Assembly: GCF_003987015.1 (NCBI RefSeq)
Contig: NZ_PIPQ01000003.1
Location: 1 to 64,000, forward strand
Origin: Aliidiomarina taiwanensis
Lineage (GTDB): Bacteria > Pseudomonadota > Gammaproteobacteria > Enterobacterales > Alteromonadaceae
Direction: 5' to 3'
DNA length: 64,000 bases
Of the stretch, positions 3,149 through 8,002 are shown one piece after another. Within the stretch, counting starts at the first letter, position 1. The number at the start of each line of letters is the position of its first letter. Position numbers and translations under genes: made by a program. Below the pieces are notes generated by a model. That model searched no databases and was not told where the DNA came from. It worked only from the letters and a program-made list of their open reading frames with translations.

Positions 3149-3697
3149 TTACTTTTCATTAGAATGGGAGCCGTAGGGGCTTTTTCGCTGTAACTTGCGT
3201 TGCAAGGTACGGCGATGCATATTCAGTGCACGCGCTGTTGCGGAAACATTGCCCTTATGTTTTAGCAACGTTTGCTGAATAAGTTCCCACTCCAACGTTT
3301 CCGGAGCAAGTGGCCTCAGCTCTACTGATGGCACACACTGTTTTTCTACTGCATGGTTTAAGCTGTCAAGCAGCGTATGTATTTCAACGGGTTTGCTTAA
3401 ATAGTCATCGGCGCCATTTTTCATAGCATACACAGTCGTGGCAATACTTGCGTAGCCCGTTAACACAATCAAACGGGCCTGGGGCCAACGGTTACGAATG
3501 TCTGGAATAGCATTCAAACTCGAATCGCTTTCTAAATGAAGGTCCAACAGAACAGCATGGCATTTTGTGTTACTTGCTAAGGCACTGGAAATACTTTCAT
3601 GTGGCTCACTGCTCCACTGATGCCGGGCCAGCCGGCGGGCCAATACTCGACTAAATGCGACATCATCATCAATATGGATAAGGTGTTTTTTTTGCAT
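3149..3697 (-). CDS. RegA/PrrA/ActR-type response regulator
   Basis: A 182-residue regulator. The receiver domain has the acidic pair Asp10/Asp11, the phosphoacceptor Asp52 (VLLDLHLE), Thr80 and Lys102. Residues about 141-175 form a Fis-type helix-turn-helix (VSATARALNMHRRTLQRKLQ), the hallmark of the RegA/PrrA/ActR family. It follows the sensor kinase by four bases and is the last gene of a receptor-kinase-regulator operon. RegA proteins classically control redox-responsive genes; the linkage to a copper receptor points to another input here. A RegA-like site lies upstream of the operon at 7049-7063. Confidence 0.88.
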   Translation of the reverse strand: MQKKHLIHIDDDVAFSRVLARRLARHQWSSEPHESISSALASNTKCHAVLLDLHLESDSSLNAIPDIRNRWPQARLIVLTGYASIATTVYAMKNGADDYLSKPVEIHTLLDSLNHAVEKQCVPSVELRPLAPETLEWELIQQTLLKHKGNVSATARALNMHRRTLQRKLQRKSPYGSHSNEK

Positions 3698-3701
3698 CGG
3701 C

Positions 3702-4913
3702 TTATTGGAGTGGGAGGCTCACTGTTTGTTTCAAAATAGGCTCTTGGTAATGCATCGCTAACGAGCCACCAAATCGTTCGAGTGTAGCGTGGCTTAACAA
3801 GGTACCAATACCCAGCCCTTGCGTACTTTTCACTGCCGTTTTACCAAGTTGTTGTAGCAGTGCTTCCGGAAAACTCACTACTTCATTTTCTATAGTGAAA
3901 ATCCAACAGTGTTGGTGTTTCGAGGTGTCAATCCAACTGTGCACCTTTACCCAAGGCTCTTTTGCACTATTATTTTCAATCGCATTACGAAGTAAGTTTA
4001 ACAGTGCCGGCAACAAACTGTAGTCGGCATACATTACTTTATCGCTGTGCTCATCCAGCCCGAACCAGCGTACGTGTGCCTGTGGAAACTGTAAATTCAA
4101 TTGGTTTTTTAATGTGTGCAGTATCGAAGCGACTTTAAAGCTCTCTGCACGCTCTTGATAAATGGCTTGTGTCGTTCGCCTTAAGTCACCTAATAGGTAC
4201 TTCATATGCTGTAACGGTGGTGCAAGCTCCGCTACTTGCTGTTGAGAAGCGTCACCGGTTTCTGTAATTTCATCAACCCAAAGGCTCAACGTATTTAACG
4301 GTGTAGCGAGCTCATGCGTCATTTGTACTGTTGCCGTTGCCAATGCAATAACCTGCTCTTGTCGCAACTGCTCTTCTCGTAACCGTGCCAGTTCTGTTTG
4401 CTGGTCTGCTAAAGCATGCTTCAACAAATAAATAACCACAGCAAGAATAACAGATGCAAGTAAAAAACTAACCGACATGCCGGCATAGTGTGCCTGGTGC
4501 TCATGCGCACTAGTCTCTAGCCATAAGTCACCCACATAATAAAGTTGAAAAGCGAGCAAAGGCAGTGACGTAACTAAAGCTTGCCGCAAGGGTAACGCCA
4601 AATAAATAAGCGCAACTAAAATTAACTGTAGTGCATTGGCGGAGCTCATTGCGCCACCGGCCTTCGCAACCATAAGCCCCCATAGCGTAATGGCTAAACA
4701 AAATTGAACGATTAAAGCATAACGAAACGCGTGCGTTTCAAGCCAATTACTCGTGAACAGCGCACACGCTGCAGCAACGGTAAGCCACAACCATCCAGAC
4801 GGCACTTCTGGGCCAACAAATACCAAGTAGCCACTGACAAAAGAACAAACAGCTACGCTGGCAATGAAAAGTACGCGAAGTAGGAAATTTATACGCTGCT
4901 CACTATTCTGCAA
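3702..4913 (-). CDS. RegB/PrrB-like sensor histidine kinase, atypical
   Basis: A 403-residue membrane kinase with about six transmembrane segments in residues 14-165. The phosphoacceptor is His200 in HELATPLNT, the RegB-type H-box, followed by an N-box (LLNLLRNAIENN) and a G-box (GLGIGTLLSH). Compared with classical RegB, the quinone-binding GGxxNPF motif reads GGAMSSANAL and has lost NPF. No cysteine lies near the H-box where the redox-active Cys sits in RegB. The fold is kept but both known redox inputs appear missing. The gene is 18 bp after the copper-receptor gene and four bases before the regulator gene. Confidence 0.85.
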   Translation of the reverse strand: MQNSEQRINFLLRVLFIASVAVCSFVSGYLVFVGPEVPSGWLWLTVAAACALFTSNWLETHAFRYALIVQFCLAITLWGLMVAKAGGAMSSANALQLILVALIYLALPLRQALVTSLPLLAFQLYYVGDLWLETSAHEHQAHYAGMSVSFLLASVILAVVIYLLKHALADQQTELARLREEQLRQEQVIALATATVQMTHELATPLNTLSLWVDEITETGDASQQQVAELAPPLQHMKYLLGDLRRTTQAIYQERAESFKVASILHTLKNQLNLQFPQAHVRWFGLDEHSDKVMYADYSLLPALLNLLRNAIENNSAKEPWVKVHSWIDTSKHQHCWIFTIENEVVSFPEALLQQLGKTAVKSTQGLGIGTLLSHATLERFGGSLAMHYQEPILKQTVSLPLQ

Positions 4914-4931
4914 ACTAGCTCCTTAGGGGCA

Positions 4932-6986
4932 CTACAATCGATAACTGATATACAACCAACCACTTCGTCCAGGCTCCGGCACCTTCATCAAGCTTGGATA
5001 GCCTGCAATAGTACTGGCATTGCGACTTAAGTGCTCTGCGTATTGTTTGTCAAACACATTGTCGATACCTAGATGAAGCTGTAACTGTGCATTCACATGC
5101 CAAGAAGCATTCAAAGCAACAACAGCGTAACCGGACGTTTCCGTATTGTCTAAGCCAACAATCGTGCCTTGTTGCGGCGCAATACGCGACTGCGCCTGTG
5201 CCGCCCGGACTTGGGCGCCTAATTGCCAATGACTTAACTGGTAAGAAGCGCCAAACTTCATTTCTAATGGCGCCTGTTGAGCTAAAGGTAACCCGTCCGT
5301 TTTATTTTTCCCTCGGGTATAGTTTAAGCTCGCAGTGAATTGCAATACATCACGTATTTGCCATTTGGTGTCAATTTCAATGCCTTGAATTTGTGCATCA
5401 ATGTTTCGGCTCAACTCGGTTGAAGGCGTTTGCTCTATTAAAATATAATCATCAATGTGGTTCCAAAAATAGCTCACCGCGTAACGAAGGTCATGGCCTG
5501 CCTGCGTCGTGGTGTCTTTCATCCAACCAATGTCAAACTGCCGTAGCGTTTCCGGCTTAATATATAGCGCACTCGCACTGGTTTCCGACTCGCGCCCACG
5601 GGCTATCATTTCCCAATAGTCAGGGAAGCGGCTAGCTTGCCCCGCACCGGCATAATAGGTGGCACTTCCCTTTTGCACTTCGAAACGCATAAACCCACTG
5701 TGTAATGTGTCCTCACGTTGTTCATTCGCTGTTGGATTTACTTGAGTTTGCTGCATATCAAGGTGGCTGCGCAAGTCTTCAGCACGCCAGCGATCAGCAC
5801 GATAACCATAATAAAACCTATGCGCTTCAGACAATCTCGATTGACCTTCAATATAAAGACCCATTTGCTCAATTTTAGCGTCCGTAGTGCGCTTCTGCTC
5901 AGGCAAAGGGCGCATATTGACGTTCATGCTCATTCGGTCGCGGTGTGTACTTTGCATCCCATCAAAGCCAACCTCAACGTCATGCGAATACCATGGCTCA
6001 AAACGAACCCGCCCTGACACCCCCCGCGTATATCGATCCGGGTTATGCGCTGCAGGCATGATAACGCCAGCCTCAACCGCCGAAGTATTTCGTAATGAGT
6101 AATTATCCATTATATGGTCAATGTAACCGTAATATACCCGCCCCTGCATGTTGGCAATCAGCGTACTTACATCCTGGGACTGCCAAACCAAGGACAGGTT
6201 TTCACGGTAGAAGGAGCTACCATCCATCATACGGTCAGCATAAGCAGACTCTCCATCACCTAAGCCAACCGAAAGCGTTAACTCCTGTTTGTCGGTTACA
6301 TACAGGCCCGCTACAAGCGCTGCGTGCCACCGTTCATAGTGCGAATGTACGTTTGCTCCCTCACCGTCTGCATAGTTGTCAGAACGAGCAAAGGTATAGT
6401 TACCACGCAAATAACCTTCATCCGTACCCGTTTGTAACTCAGCGTTGGTTTCTGCACGCCCAAAACTTCCACCGGTCATTGAAATGAAGCCGTGCCATGG
6501 TTGTTCAGTGAAATCAGGCTTATTGCGTTCAAAGTTAACCGTTGCCGCTGCTGCAGGAGGGCCCGAGGCCACATTGTAAGGCCCTTTAGTGACGCGAATG
6601 CTATCATAGCTTTGCGGCGACACATACGCCGTTGGCGGGTCCATCCGTGACTCACAGCCCCCCAGCAGTGGCATACCGTCACTCAAAATATTGATGCGCG
6701 AGCCCGCCAACCCACGAAATACAGGATCACTACTAGCTCCTCCTTTTCGAACCACCTGAAACCCAGTAATACCCTTTAAATAATCAGCACCGTCGTGTGC
6801 GGGCAGAGGTTGACGAGGCACTTTTGTATTTTCCACCACAACACTTGGCGATTGCATTACGGTGCCCGTTACTTGAATACGCTCGAAAGACTGTTTGCTT
6901 TGTTCTTTTGTTTCTTCTGGCTCTGCAGCAACCACAGAGCCAACATAAAGCATAGGAATGGTAAGATATAAAATACGTACAACCAT
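4932..6986 (-). CDS. TonB-dependent copper receptor, OprC/NosA-like
   Basis: A 684-residue outer-membrane receptor. I chose ATG 6986 because it gives a normal signal peptide (MVVRILYLTIPMLYVGSVVA); ATG 7010 would add eight residues. The plug domain contains GADYLKGITGFQVVRKGG and GGCESRMDPPTAY, very like OprC. Cys111/Met115 (CxxxM) and His291/Met293 (HIM) match the OprC copper ligands recalled as C143/M147/H323/M325, with the same 180-residue spacing. A Met-rich stretch (MSMNVNM, about 352-358) follows. The barrel ends with a C-terminal aromatic-rich strand. It is the first gene of an operon with a RegBA-like system, which is unusual. Confidence 0.9.
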   Translation of the reverse strand: MVVRILYLTIPMLYVGSVVAAEPEETKEQSKQSFERIQVTGTVMQSPSVVVENTKVPRQPLPAHDGADYLKGITGFQVVRKGGASSDPVFRGLAGSRINILSDGMPLLGGCESRMDPPTAYVSPQSYDSIRVTKGPYNVASGPPAAAATVNFERNKPDFTEQPWHGFISMTGGSFGRAETNAELQTGTDEGYLRGNYTFARSDNYADGEGANVHSHYERWHAALVAGLYVTDKQELTLSVGLGDGESAYADRMMDGSSFYRENLSLVWQSQDVSTLIANMQGRVYYGYIDHIMDNYSLRNTSAVEAGVIMPAAHNPDRYTRGVSGRVRFEPWYSHDVEVGFDGMQSTHRDRMSMNVNMRPLPEQKRTTDAKIEQMGLYIEGQSRLSEAHRFYYGYRADRWRAEDLRSHLDMQQTQVNPTANEQREDTLHSGFMRFEVQKGSATYYAGAGQASRFPDYWEMIARGRESETSASALYIKPETLRQFDIGWMKDTTTQAGHDLRYAVSYFWNHIDDYILIEQTPSTELSRNIDAQIQGIEIDTKWQIRDVLQFTASLNYTRGKNKTDGLPLAQQAPLEMKFGASYQLSHWQLGAQVRAAQAQSRIAPQQGTIVGLDNTETSGYAVVALNASWHVNAQLQLHLGIDNVFDKQYAEHLSRNASTIAGYPSLMKVPEPGRSGWLYISYRL

Positions 6987-7048
6987 GACTACATCCCAAA
7001 TTAGGTACAAAGGTGCTGTATTTTACGAAATAAAAAAGAAAAGAAGAT

Positions 7049-7063
7049 GTGACAAATTGTCGC
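7049..7063. promoter_or_regulatory. Candidate RegA/PrrA-type binding site
   Basis: GTGACAAATTGTCGC (GCGACAATTTGTCAC on the coding strand) is an imperfect inverted repeat GYGAC-N5-GTCRC, close to the published RegA/PrrA consensus of GCGNC-like half-sites. It lies about 60-75 bp upstream of the receptor start, where the RegA-like product of the same operon could bind. Function is inferred. Confidence 0.5.
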
Positions 7064-7154
7064 AGGGGAGCGCCCACCCTATAAATCGTAAACTGCCTCT
7101 GGCTTTTAAAATGTCCGAGGCAAAGGCCTGCTCTTCACTACTTGCTTGTAGCCC

Positions 7155-8002
7155 TTAAGGAAGAATGGTAGCGACAGCAAGTTCAGTCTCAACACCTTCA
7201 GCTACAAGGTTCATACTTTGCCCAAGGGTTATAATCGATTGAGCTAGCAGAGCCTCTTCAGCTTCCACATCTAAACTCCTGATAAACATTCGGTCTACCT
7301 TTAACTCATCCAATGGCAGGCGTGTCAAATAGGCCAAAGAGGCATAGCCTGTGCCGAAGTCATCCAGCGAAATGGACACGCCTAGTTCCCGTAGCCTGTT
7401 CATTTGCTGTACAACAAAGTCTATATCTTCCGCAAGCATGTTTTCCGTGAGTTCAAAGCGGAGCTTACTCGCTGGTGCGCCCGTTTTATCTAGGGTTTGT
7501 TTTACTCGCGGCACTAGGACGACACTGCGAAATTGGACAGGACTTACATTGACAGATATGCGTAAATGTTGTTTGTCACTTTGCCCACGCCAAAGCGCCA
7601 GCTTTTGACAGCTTTGTTCTAGAACCCACTCGCCAATGCTGATAATGCTTCCTGTTGCTTCCGCTATGGGAATAAAGTCATTCGGGGGAATAGAGCCTAT
7701 GTCAGCATGCTGCCATCTTTATGTTTTAAACTGAGTCGAGCAGGAGGGATCTCTTTGCGGTTCTCAAACATCCAAGCAACTGACTTCTTAACGTCGTCAC
7801 GCATTTCTTCGGGAATAATAAGGTCGTATAGTGTTTTTTCTAAAGCTCCATTAATGGAGTAGCCGTAAATTCTTTCCGACGCTGCATTCCAATAAACAAC
7901 GGAACCGTCCATACGATAACCTTGTATCGACATGGACTGTGTGTCTTCAAAAAGCTTATGAAAACGTGTCTCATGTGTTTTATTGCTGGAAGTGTTCGTC
8001 AT
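7155..8002 (-). pseudogene. Broken PAS-(GGDEF)-EAL protein: internal deletion and truncated C-terminus
   Basis: The start at 8002 opens a PAS domain (YRMDGSVVYWNAASERIYGYS) that stops at 7697 after KHKDGSMLT. In another frame an EAL domain continues from WQHADIGSIPPNDFIPIAEA near 7716 to 7155, with LRFELTENM, SLDDFGTGYASL, LKVDRMFI and VAEGVETE. The GGDEF domain and the EAL start (including the EAL motif) are missing, and the EAL end after VAEGVETE is lost too. The junction GATGGCAGCATGCTGAC (minus strand, 7717-7701) codes for DGSML in one frame and WQHAD in the other, suggesting deletion at a short shared sequence. No working phosphodiesterase is expected. Confidence 0.85.

Follow-up and report, generated by a model that had tools for sequence, protein, structure and literature searches.

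The window analysed here is a 64,000-nucleotide stretch of DNA from Aliidiomarina taiwanensis (contig NZ_PIPQ01000003.1, positions 1 to 64,000), and the subject of this report is a group of three genes on its minus strand, in the order receptor, kinase and regulator, which encode a TonB-dependent copper receptor of the OprC/NosA type followed by a two-component system related to RegB and RegA. The genes are separated by gaps of only 18 bp (4914-4931) and 4 bp (3698-3701), a one-strand spacing claimed in a first-pass annotation of this DNA and borne out by the open reading frame coordinates. The features to which we refer are the following:

4932-7010, minus strand: receptor gene, TonB-dependent copper receptor of the OprC/NosA type (568 bits on TIGR01778), with a likely ATG start at 6986
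6642-6656, minus strand: Cys119-Met123 codons, CxxxM half of the predicted copper site, in the plug, aligned with OprC C143/M147
6108-6116, minus strand: His299-Met301 codons, HxM half of the predicted copper site, in the barrel, aligned with OprC H323/M325
3702-4913, minus strand: kinase gene, RegB-like sensor kinase (best family ActS/PrrB/RegB, under its cut-off; HATPase_c over the Pfam cut-off)
4476-4541, minus strand: predicted periplasmic loop with an HxxxM pair (H142, M146) that is invariant in an 11-row alignment of the kinase branch
4314-4316, minus strand: codon of His200, the putative phospho-acceptor of the kinase H-box, an invariant column in the alignment
3149-3697, minus strand: regulator gene, RegA-like response regulator with a receiver and a Fis-type helix-turn-helix (ActR/PrrA/RegA; Response_reg, HTH_8)
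3185-3301, minus strand: HTH_8 DNA-binding region with a RegA-type recognition helix (Pfam HTH_8 and alignment)
7049-7063, minus strand: predicted RegA-type palindrome GCGACAATTTGTCAC, 15 bp, upstream of the receptor, identified by its likeness to published RegA sites
7020-7025, minus strand: -10-like hexamer TAAAAT, 38 nt from the box start, identified by the recurrent spacing between box and hexamer

Judged by its sequence, the receptor belongs to the OprC family. Its score on TIGR01778 (TonB-copper) exceeds the curated cut-off of 472 bits, Pfam Plug and TonB_dep_Rec_b-barrel are both over their cut-offs, and its best solved relative is OprC (6fok, E 1.8e-132), matched over the full length. 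In the HMMER alignment, Cys119, Met123, His299 and Met301 fall on C143, M147, H323 and M325, the copper ligands of OprC (PMC8610252; here and below, papers are cited for the accessible part of their text). These residue numbers depend on the start codon, being 119/123/299/301 from the listed TTG at 7010 and 111/115/291/293 from the ATG at 6986. The latter is the numbering of the first-pass annotation, whose claim that the four residues are kept with the 180-residue spacing of OprC was confirmed by the alignment it had suggested, where the ligands are in register and coincide with the OprC copper site. The same C/M/H/M tetrad was found at the aligned positions in none of 25 other TonB-receptor rows (five of them from the window's own genome, including one fragment and two that are one receptor by coordinates), which argues that the tetrad is not a product of chance.

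A search of genomes for the same three-gene order, also suggested by that annotation, returned 41 same-strand receptor-kinase-regulator operons, 34 of which are distinct after dropping seven duplicates (ten of the 80 kinases from named genomes treated below are identical to kinases of the genome sample, and the seven that are operon loci were left out). The tetrad is present at the ligand positions in all 34 operon receptors; five of these, the window receptor and those scoring at least 525 bits to it, are of the OprC type, and the other 29 reach 43-76 bits and fall outside this type. The finding is wider than the first-pass annotation had it: a two-component system of this kind also accompanies other receptors with the same tetrad, as well as MbnP-MauG genes. 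In the family sample of 118 genomes, a receptor over the cut-off occurs in 12 and a kinase match in 66. We inspected 62 kinase neighbourhoods from this sample, and among the first 40, besides that of genome G028, seven loci (L036, L040, L042, L045, L051, L052 and L057) have the same order on one strand, with receptors that are not of the OprC type (the five scanned reach 100-148 bits on TIGR01778) and that carry the full tetrad; the L036 receptor, compared with solved structures, matched OprC chains only (best E 6.6e-20). A third group comprises seven receptors that stand beside oppositely oriented kinase-regulator pairs and have Gly for Cys (G/M/H/M). Within the genus (17 genomes), the kinase is matched in nine genomes (E at most 1e-25) and the receptor in six (E at most 1e-60), and the same-strand operon is present in four: those of the window and of G495 (L183) have an OprC-type receptor, those of G059 (L045) and G487 (L181) one of the other type. 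Two further genomes of the genus (G496 and G497) have an OprC-type receptor apart from the kinase.

Named genomes were scanned with a kinase profile, and the best 80 of 181 loci were taken with their neighbours within 4.5 kb. These comprise 27 operons with a non-OprC receptor bearing the C/M/H/M tetrad, three operons with an OprC-type receptor (L190, which is the G495 locus, L257 of Idiomarina rhizosphaerae and L262 of I. aquatica) and one locus whose OprC-type receptor is divergent (L229, Ferrimonas senticii); a G/M/H/M receptor lies nearby at nine others, MbnP and MauG genes at six, PCuAC/PepSY genes at two, and none of these at 32. The proportion of linked loci should not be read as a census, since the kinase profile was built mostly from receptor-linked kinases. 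In the class sample of 369 genomes the receptor is matched in 52 and the RegA family in 122, and two more cases of a receptor neighbouring a two-component system by coordinates were found, both divergent (G199 and G351, the G351 receptor being under the cut-off). Most of the over-cut-off receptors sampled in the family and the class have no adjoining two-component system of the RegBA-like kind. A further locus, L104, holds a partial OprC-type receptor (6628-7599, plus strand) and a RegA-like regulator on the other strand (5965-6492, minus strand), with no kinase match in the stretch.

The palindrome upstream of the window receptor is a predicted site, recognised by its sequence match at the receptor promoter. 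The chromatin immunoprecipitation sequencing table of Rhodobacter capsulatus RegA lists 15-mers, some of them of the same form, such as GTGACAATTTGTCCC at cydA and GCGACCGTTCGTCGC at ccoN (PMC5359404). With at most one mismatch, the box GYGACNNNNNGTCRC precedes 32 of the 34 operon receptors as against 26 of 610 control genes taken from the neighbourhoods of genome-sample loci, and the stricter form GCGACNNNNNGTCGC precedes 27 of 34 as against 20 of 610; some of these 20 control matches are themselves copper genes (PCuAC in L049, MbnP in L048 and L064) or a receptor adjoining a PepSY_TM gene (L082). The box also keeps a set distance to a -10-like hexamer, TANNNT starting 38 or 39 nt past the box start in 31 of 34 operons. 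This spacing was first noticed in 20 of 28 receptor promoters of genome-sample loci, and was then met in 21 of 22 named operon sites outside that first set, which had been picked for a box with at most one mismatch; at the seven G/M/H/M receptors of the family sample the box is present and the spacing is missing. If TAAAAT is the -10 element, the window box would be centred near -43, where an activator could touch the polymerase. In the window's own genome there are two exact matches to GYGACAWNWTGTCRC, including the window box (none in the reversed control), and one-mismatch matches are uninformative (23 versus 17 in the reversed control); a wider regulon in this genome was rejected, since the second exact box, at C1:608207, lies inside an open reading frame by coordinates.

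As for the two-component system, the labels RegB-like and RegA-like in the first-pass annotation name the nearest families correctly, but both proteins fail the family cut-offs, and since their redox cysteines are missing as well we regard them as relatives of RegBA and not as RegBA proper. For the kinase, the ActS/PrrB/RegB family (NF033792) gives 37 bits where 350 are required, and the eight related kinases that were scanned fall short as well (41-168 bits). The regulator scores 127 bits against 250 (ActR/PrrA/RegA, NF033791), a cut-off that none of the 369 class genomes passes, and the second-best RegA-family match in the window's own genome reaches 74 bits over the receiver only. The kinase has both the H-box histidine (H200) and the ATPase domain (HATPase_c), and the regulator has a receiver and a Fis-type helix-turn-helix with the conserved RegA recognition helix; the system probably works like RegBA in spite of the failed RegB and RegA tests. 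At the column of the redox-active Cys265 of RegB, the window kinase reads QHMKY, and GGxxNPF, which we take to be the RegB quinone motif, is degraded in it to GGAMSSAN. With the cysteine and the quinone motif both gone, an ordinary RegB-type oxygen sensor is unlikely. Before the last membrane helix the kinase has a loop, which our guess, from RegB topology, places in the periplasm; in 65 sample kinases this loop is rich in His and Met (mean 28%, versus 5.5% for whole kinases), and from its composition we would guess that it binds copper. The RegB-like kinase of L070 (6651-8075, minus strand) has a sensor-loop stretch with nine His and 12 Met, a candidate metal-binding loop.

Loss of the redox cysteine tracks the operon. 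Among the 80 named loci, 30 of 38 cysteine-less kinases are in an operon with the receptor as against none of 42 cysteine-bearing ones (Fisher p 5.5e-15; the Fisher values given here ignore relatedness), and this division by cysteine makes no use of the receptor. The cysteine-less kinases that were placed on trees form one branch (support 100/99), three cysteine-less named kinases with no receptor (L207, L223 and L233) having been left out of the trees. The five OprC-type operons have regulators that do not form a single clade (approximately unbiased test, p 1.7e-05), which fits repeated pairing of receptor and two-component system, and the OprC-type operon receptors fall in at least two places on the receptor tree. 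Most simply, receptor and two-component system were joined at least twice, although long branches urge caution; a single ancient pairing followed by losses and swaps would be the less simple history.

Receptors that stand apart from a two-component system bear on which protein might bind the box. When up to one mismatch to GCGACNNNNNGTCGC is allowed, the box precedes five of the 15 receptors scored in RegA-positive genomes of the class sample versus one of 29 in RegA-negative ones (Fisher p 0.013, falling to 0.004 with the degenerate site of L122 included). Receptors were taken here at E 1e-60 on TIGR01778, so that not all are over the cut-off, and RegA-positive means E at most 1e-28; 44 receptor loci were scored, six of 50 being left out for want of a complete receptor open reading frame, and G357 was also left out. 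In the five RegA-positive genomes with the box, the RegA gene sits on another contig, and the two loci among the 15 that are linked to a two-component system (L121 and L122) are not among the five matches. The contrast is modest and fits RegA as the binder. In the family sample, where gaps of 3-9 and R/Y at two positions were allowed and the count is not comparable with the other box counts, a clear site was found at three of ten unlinked OprC-type loci (L093, L094 and L098), all three in genomes that have a kinase match.

Taken together, these sequence comparisons show a recurrent three-gene unit that is most likely a functional copper-uptake cassette. More specifically, we read it as a copper-acquisition operon that is assembled from RegBA parts and activates its own expression, a reading to which we would assign a probability of roughly 0.62. 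The RegB-like kinase would phosphorylate the RegA-like regulator, which would then bind the box at 7049-7063 and activate the receptor promoter, and activation would raise both copper import and the amount of the regulator itself. The least certain step is what turns the kinase on: copper shortage could act directly through the His/Met periplasmic loop, or copper-starved oxidases could alter the respiratory state, to which the kinase would respond indirectly. The local copper circuit made from RegBA parts that the first-pass annotation had proposed thus holds up as regards the linkage of receptor and two-component system, met in 34 operons, and the match of the ligands to OprC; it holds less well in that few over-cut-off receptors of the family are linked and the system is not RegBA proper.

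Several observations weigh against this reading. Receptor and kinase lie side by side by coordinates in only two of the 12 family genomes with an over-cut-off receptor (the window and G028), and several of the 34 operons, for instance the Alteromonas loci, are closely related, so that the counts are not independent. Two OprC-type receptors of the genus (L184 and L185) are unlinked and have no box, the former being the nearest relative of the window receptor on the tree; the share of unlinked family loci with a site is low, and two unlinked OprC-type loci (L096 and L099) have none, yet their genomes hold a kinase match. The same kinase branch occurs in the genus with no receptor (L031, L182 and L186) and next to receptors of the heme or siderophore type (L187-L189, two of which have no box), so that it is not tied to copper alone. 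At the promoter, many of the published RegA sites match the palindrome poorly (PMC5359404), the three operons that miss the -10 spacing are the Idiomarina OprC-type ones (L067, L257 and L262), the boxes of L262 and L183 carry two mismatches, and a box overlapping the -35 region could also serve repression. In the proteins, a loop rich in His and Met is common to the RegB-like kinases sampled, whether or not they have the cysteine, and is not specific to the branch, the window loop being below the average at 18%; the kinases that adjoin MbnP are mostly cysteine-bearing (five of six). The regulator reads KHKGN at Cys156, the residue of the copper/oxygen disulfide of RegA, whose equivalent is present in only L121 and L122 among 66 aligned regulators, and RegA-style copper sensing through this cysteine was rejected on that ground.

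The alternative that survives best, although we consider it unlikely, is that the two-component system still reads the redox or quinone state, the receptor being one output that feeds copper oxidases and copper not being the signal. This would agree with the NPF/NPY of the quinone motif being retained in the seven A-type kinases aligned and in L067, with the R. capsulatus RegA sites at ccoN and cydA (PMC5359404), and with CrtA, another copper receptor, serving respiratory oxidases (PMC12914433), but the redox cysteine is gone from all 30 named operon kinases, none of the 42 cysteine-bearing kinases is in an operon, and the window kinase has lost the quinone motif too. A guard on import in the manner of CopRS, in which the system would sense surplus copper and shut the receptor off, seems to us improbable. 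In its favour, repressors too bind at the -35 region, which the box would overlap, and copper represses OprC and NosA in Pseudomonas (PMC8610252); however, a promoter scan found no consensus sigma-70 promoter between the window box and the start codon, which fits a promoter needing activation, and the genes of the two-component system sit downstream of the promoter that they would shut off. That the adjacency is accidental and the two-component system controls unrelated genes is the most improbable reading, for although the genus also has versions with no receptor or with one of the heme or siderophore type, and most of the over-cut-off receptors have no such neighbour, chance adjacency is contradicted by the 34 distinct operons, the tetrad found in none of the 25 background rows, the box before 32 of 34 receptors at its set distance from the -10-like hexamer, and the scatter of the OprC-type operons over the regulator tree.

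The preferred reading, a copper-acquisition operon with its own positive regulation, can be set beside known systems. CopRS and CusRS are likewise two-component systems tied to copper, with OmpR-type regulators; the window regulator is Fis-type (HTH_8) and reaches 31 bits versus the 279 of the CopR/CusR cut-off (TIGR01387), and a CopRS-type system was rejected. To our knowledge, the copper two-component systems all answer excess. With OprC and NosA the window receptor has in common the family cut-off passed, the full-length match and the four ligands in register, and it differs from most sampled members, which are unlinked, in heading an operon with a RegBA-like system and a RegA-type box. With RegB/RegA (PrrBA, ActSR, RoxSR) the window system has in common the Fis-type helix-turn-helix and its recognition helix, the RegA-type site, the H-box and the His/Met loop, and it differs in scores under the cut-offs, in the absence of Cys265 and Cys156, in the lost quinone motif and in the absence of senC/SCO among the scanned neighbours.

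The first-pass annotation had also held that RegBA systems are global redox regulators with no metal receptor as a partner. The first half of this stands, but the literature does tie RegBA to copper (PMC9147068) and to an iron receptor (PMC13274454). In one group regBA is co-transcribed with the gene of the copper protein SenC, and R. capsulatus RegA binds copper, which promotes the Cys156 disulfide (PMC9147068); the link of the RegA family to copper would be common to both, the cysteine being absent here. RegBA of Methylomonas controls, and raises, a TonB receptor for a metal, iron (PMC13274454), and here a copper-type receptor is in the operon of the two-component system. CrtA is likewise a case of TonB-dependent copper import tied to respiratory oxidases, with PepSY_TM partners like those near L049 and L082, but it has no conserved Cys or Met, and cruR leads more than 40% of CrtA operons (PMC12914433); the word RegA does not occur in the main text of that paper. 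No report of a RegBA-like system sharing an operon with a copper receptor was found among the matches listed from the open-licence literature, subscription journals being mostly outside the scope of the search.

The sensing of copper shortage in Gram-negative bacteria, and the upregulation of import that follows, are poorly characterised (PMC12914433). A concrete candidate for such sensing is offered by the RegBA-like cassette, whose predicted DNA site keeps a set distance within the promoter and which accompanies several receptors with a copper site in marine genera that can be cultured; if true, it would recast RegBA as the origin of switches for local metal uptake and would mark a set of receptors distant from OprC as likely copper receptors. 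A broader proposal, tentative and in our view somewhat readier to fail than to hold, is that the cysteine-less RegB branch consists of dedicated copper-starvation sensors that act through the His/Met loop and switch on receptors through the RegA box, with OprC-type and other CxxxM-HxM receptors as interchangeable outputs of one cassette, and that related RegBA-like systems do likewise for MbnP-MauG.

Copper genes other than receptors were also met beside such two-component systems, namely MbnP-MauG in six and PCuAC/PepSY in two of the 80 named loci. Over all samples, RegBA-like pairs adjoin MbnP and a MauG-type di-heme protein at eight loci (L048, L064, L196, L208, L232, L239, L242 and L252), a protein of about 400 amino acids, with no Pfam match in the two scanned, is also present at seven of these eight, and a RegA-type box lies near the MbnP start in L048 and L064. 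A TonB receptor has a PepSY_TM-type gene and a RegBA-like pair in its vicinity at L049, L082, L084, L092, L187 and L248, with PCuAC in L049 and L248, an arrangement that resembles the one described for CrtA; the identity of the L049 and L082 receptors with CrtA was rejected, their best solved relatives being YncD/PqqU. Twelve RegBA-like pairs (L032-L035, L037, L043, L046, L047, L053, L054, L071 and L072) have a conserved neighbour of about 183 amino acids, which was considered as senC/SCO and rejected, being MsrA in the two tested (L033 and L035); this would place methionine repair beside a Met-rich sensor. In the window, senC/SCO was not among the flanking genes scanned (a pirin and PAS/EAL pieces). 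The latter, at 7155-8002 on the minus strand adjoining the operon, consist of a PAS (7697-8002) and an EAL piece (7155-7514) in different frames with stops between them, and look like a broken signalling gene.

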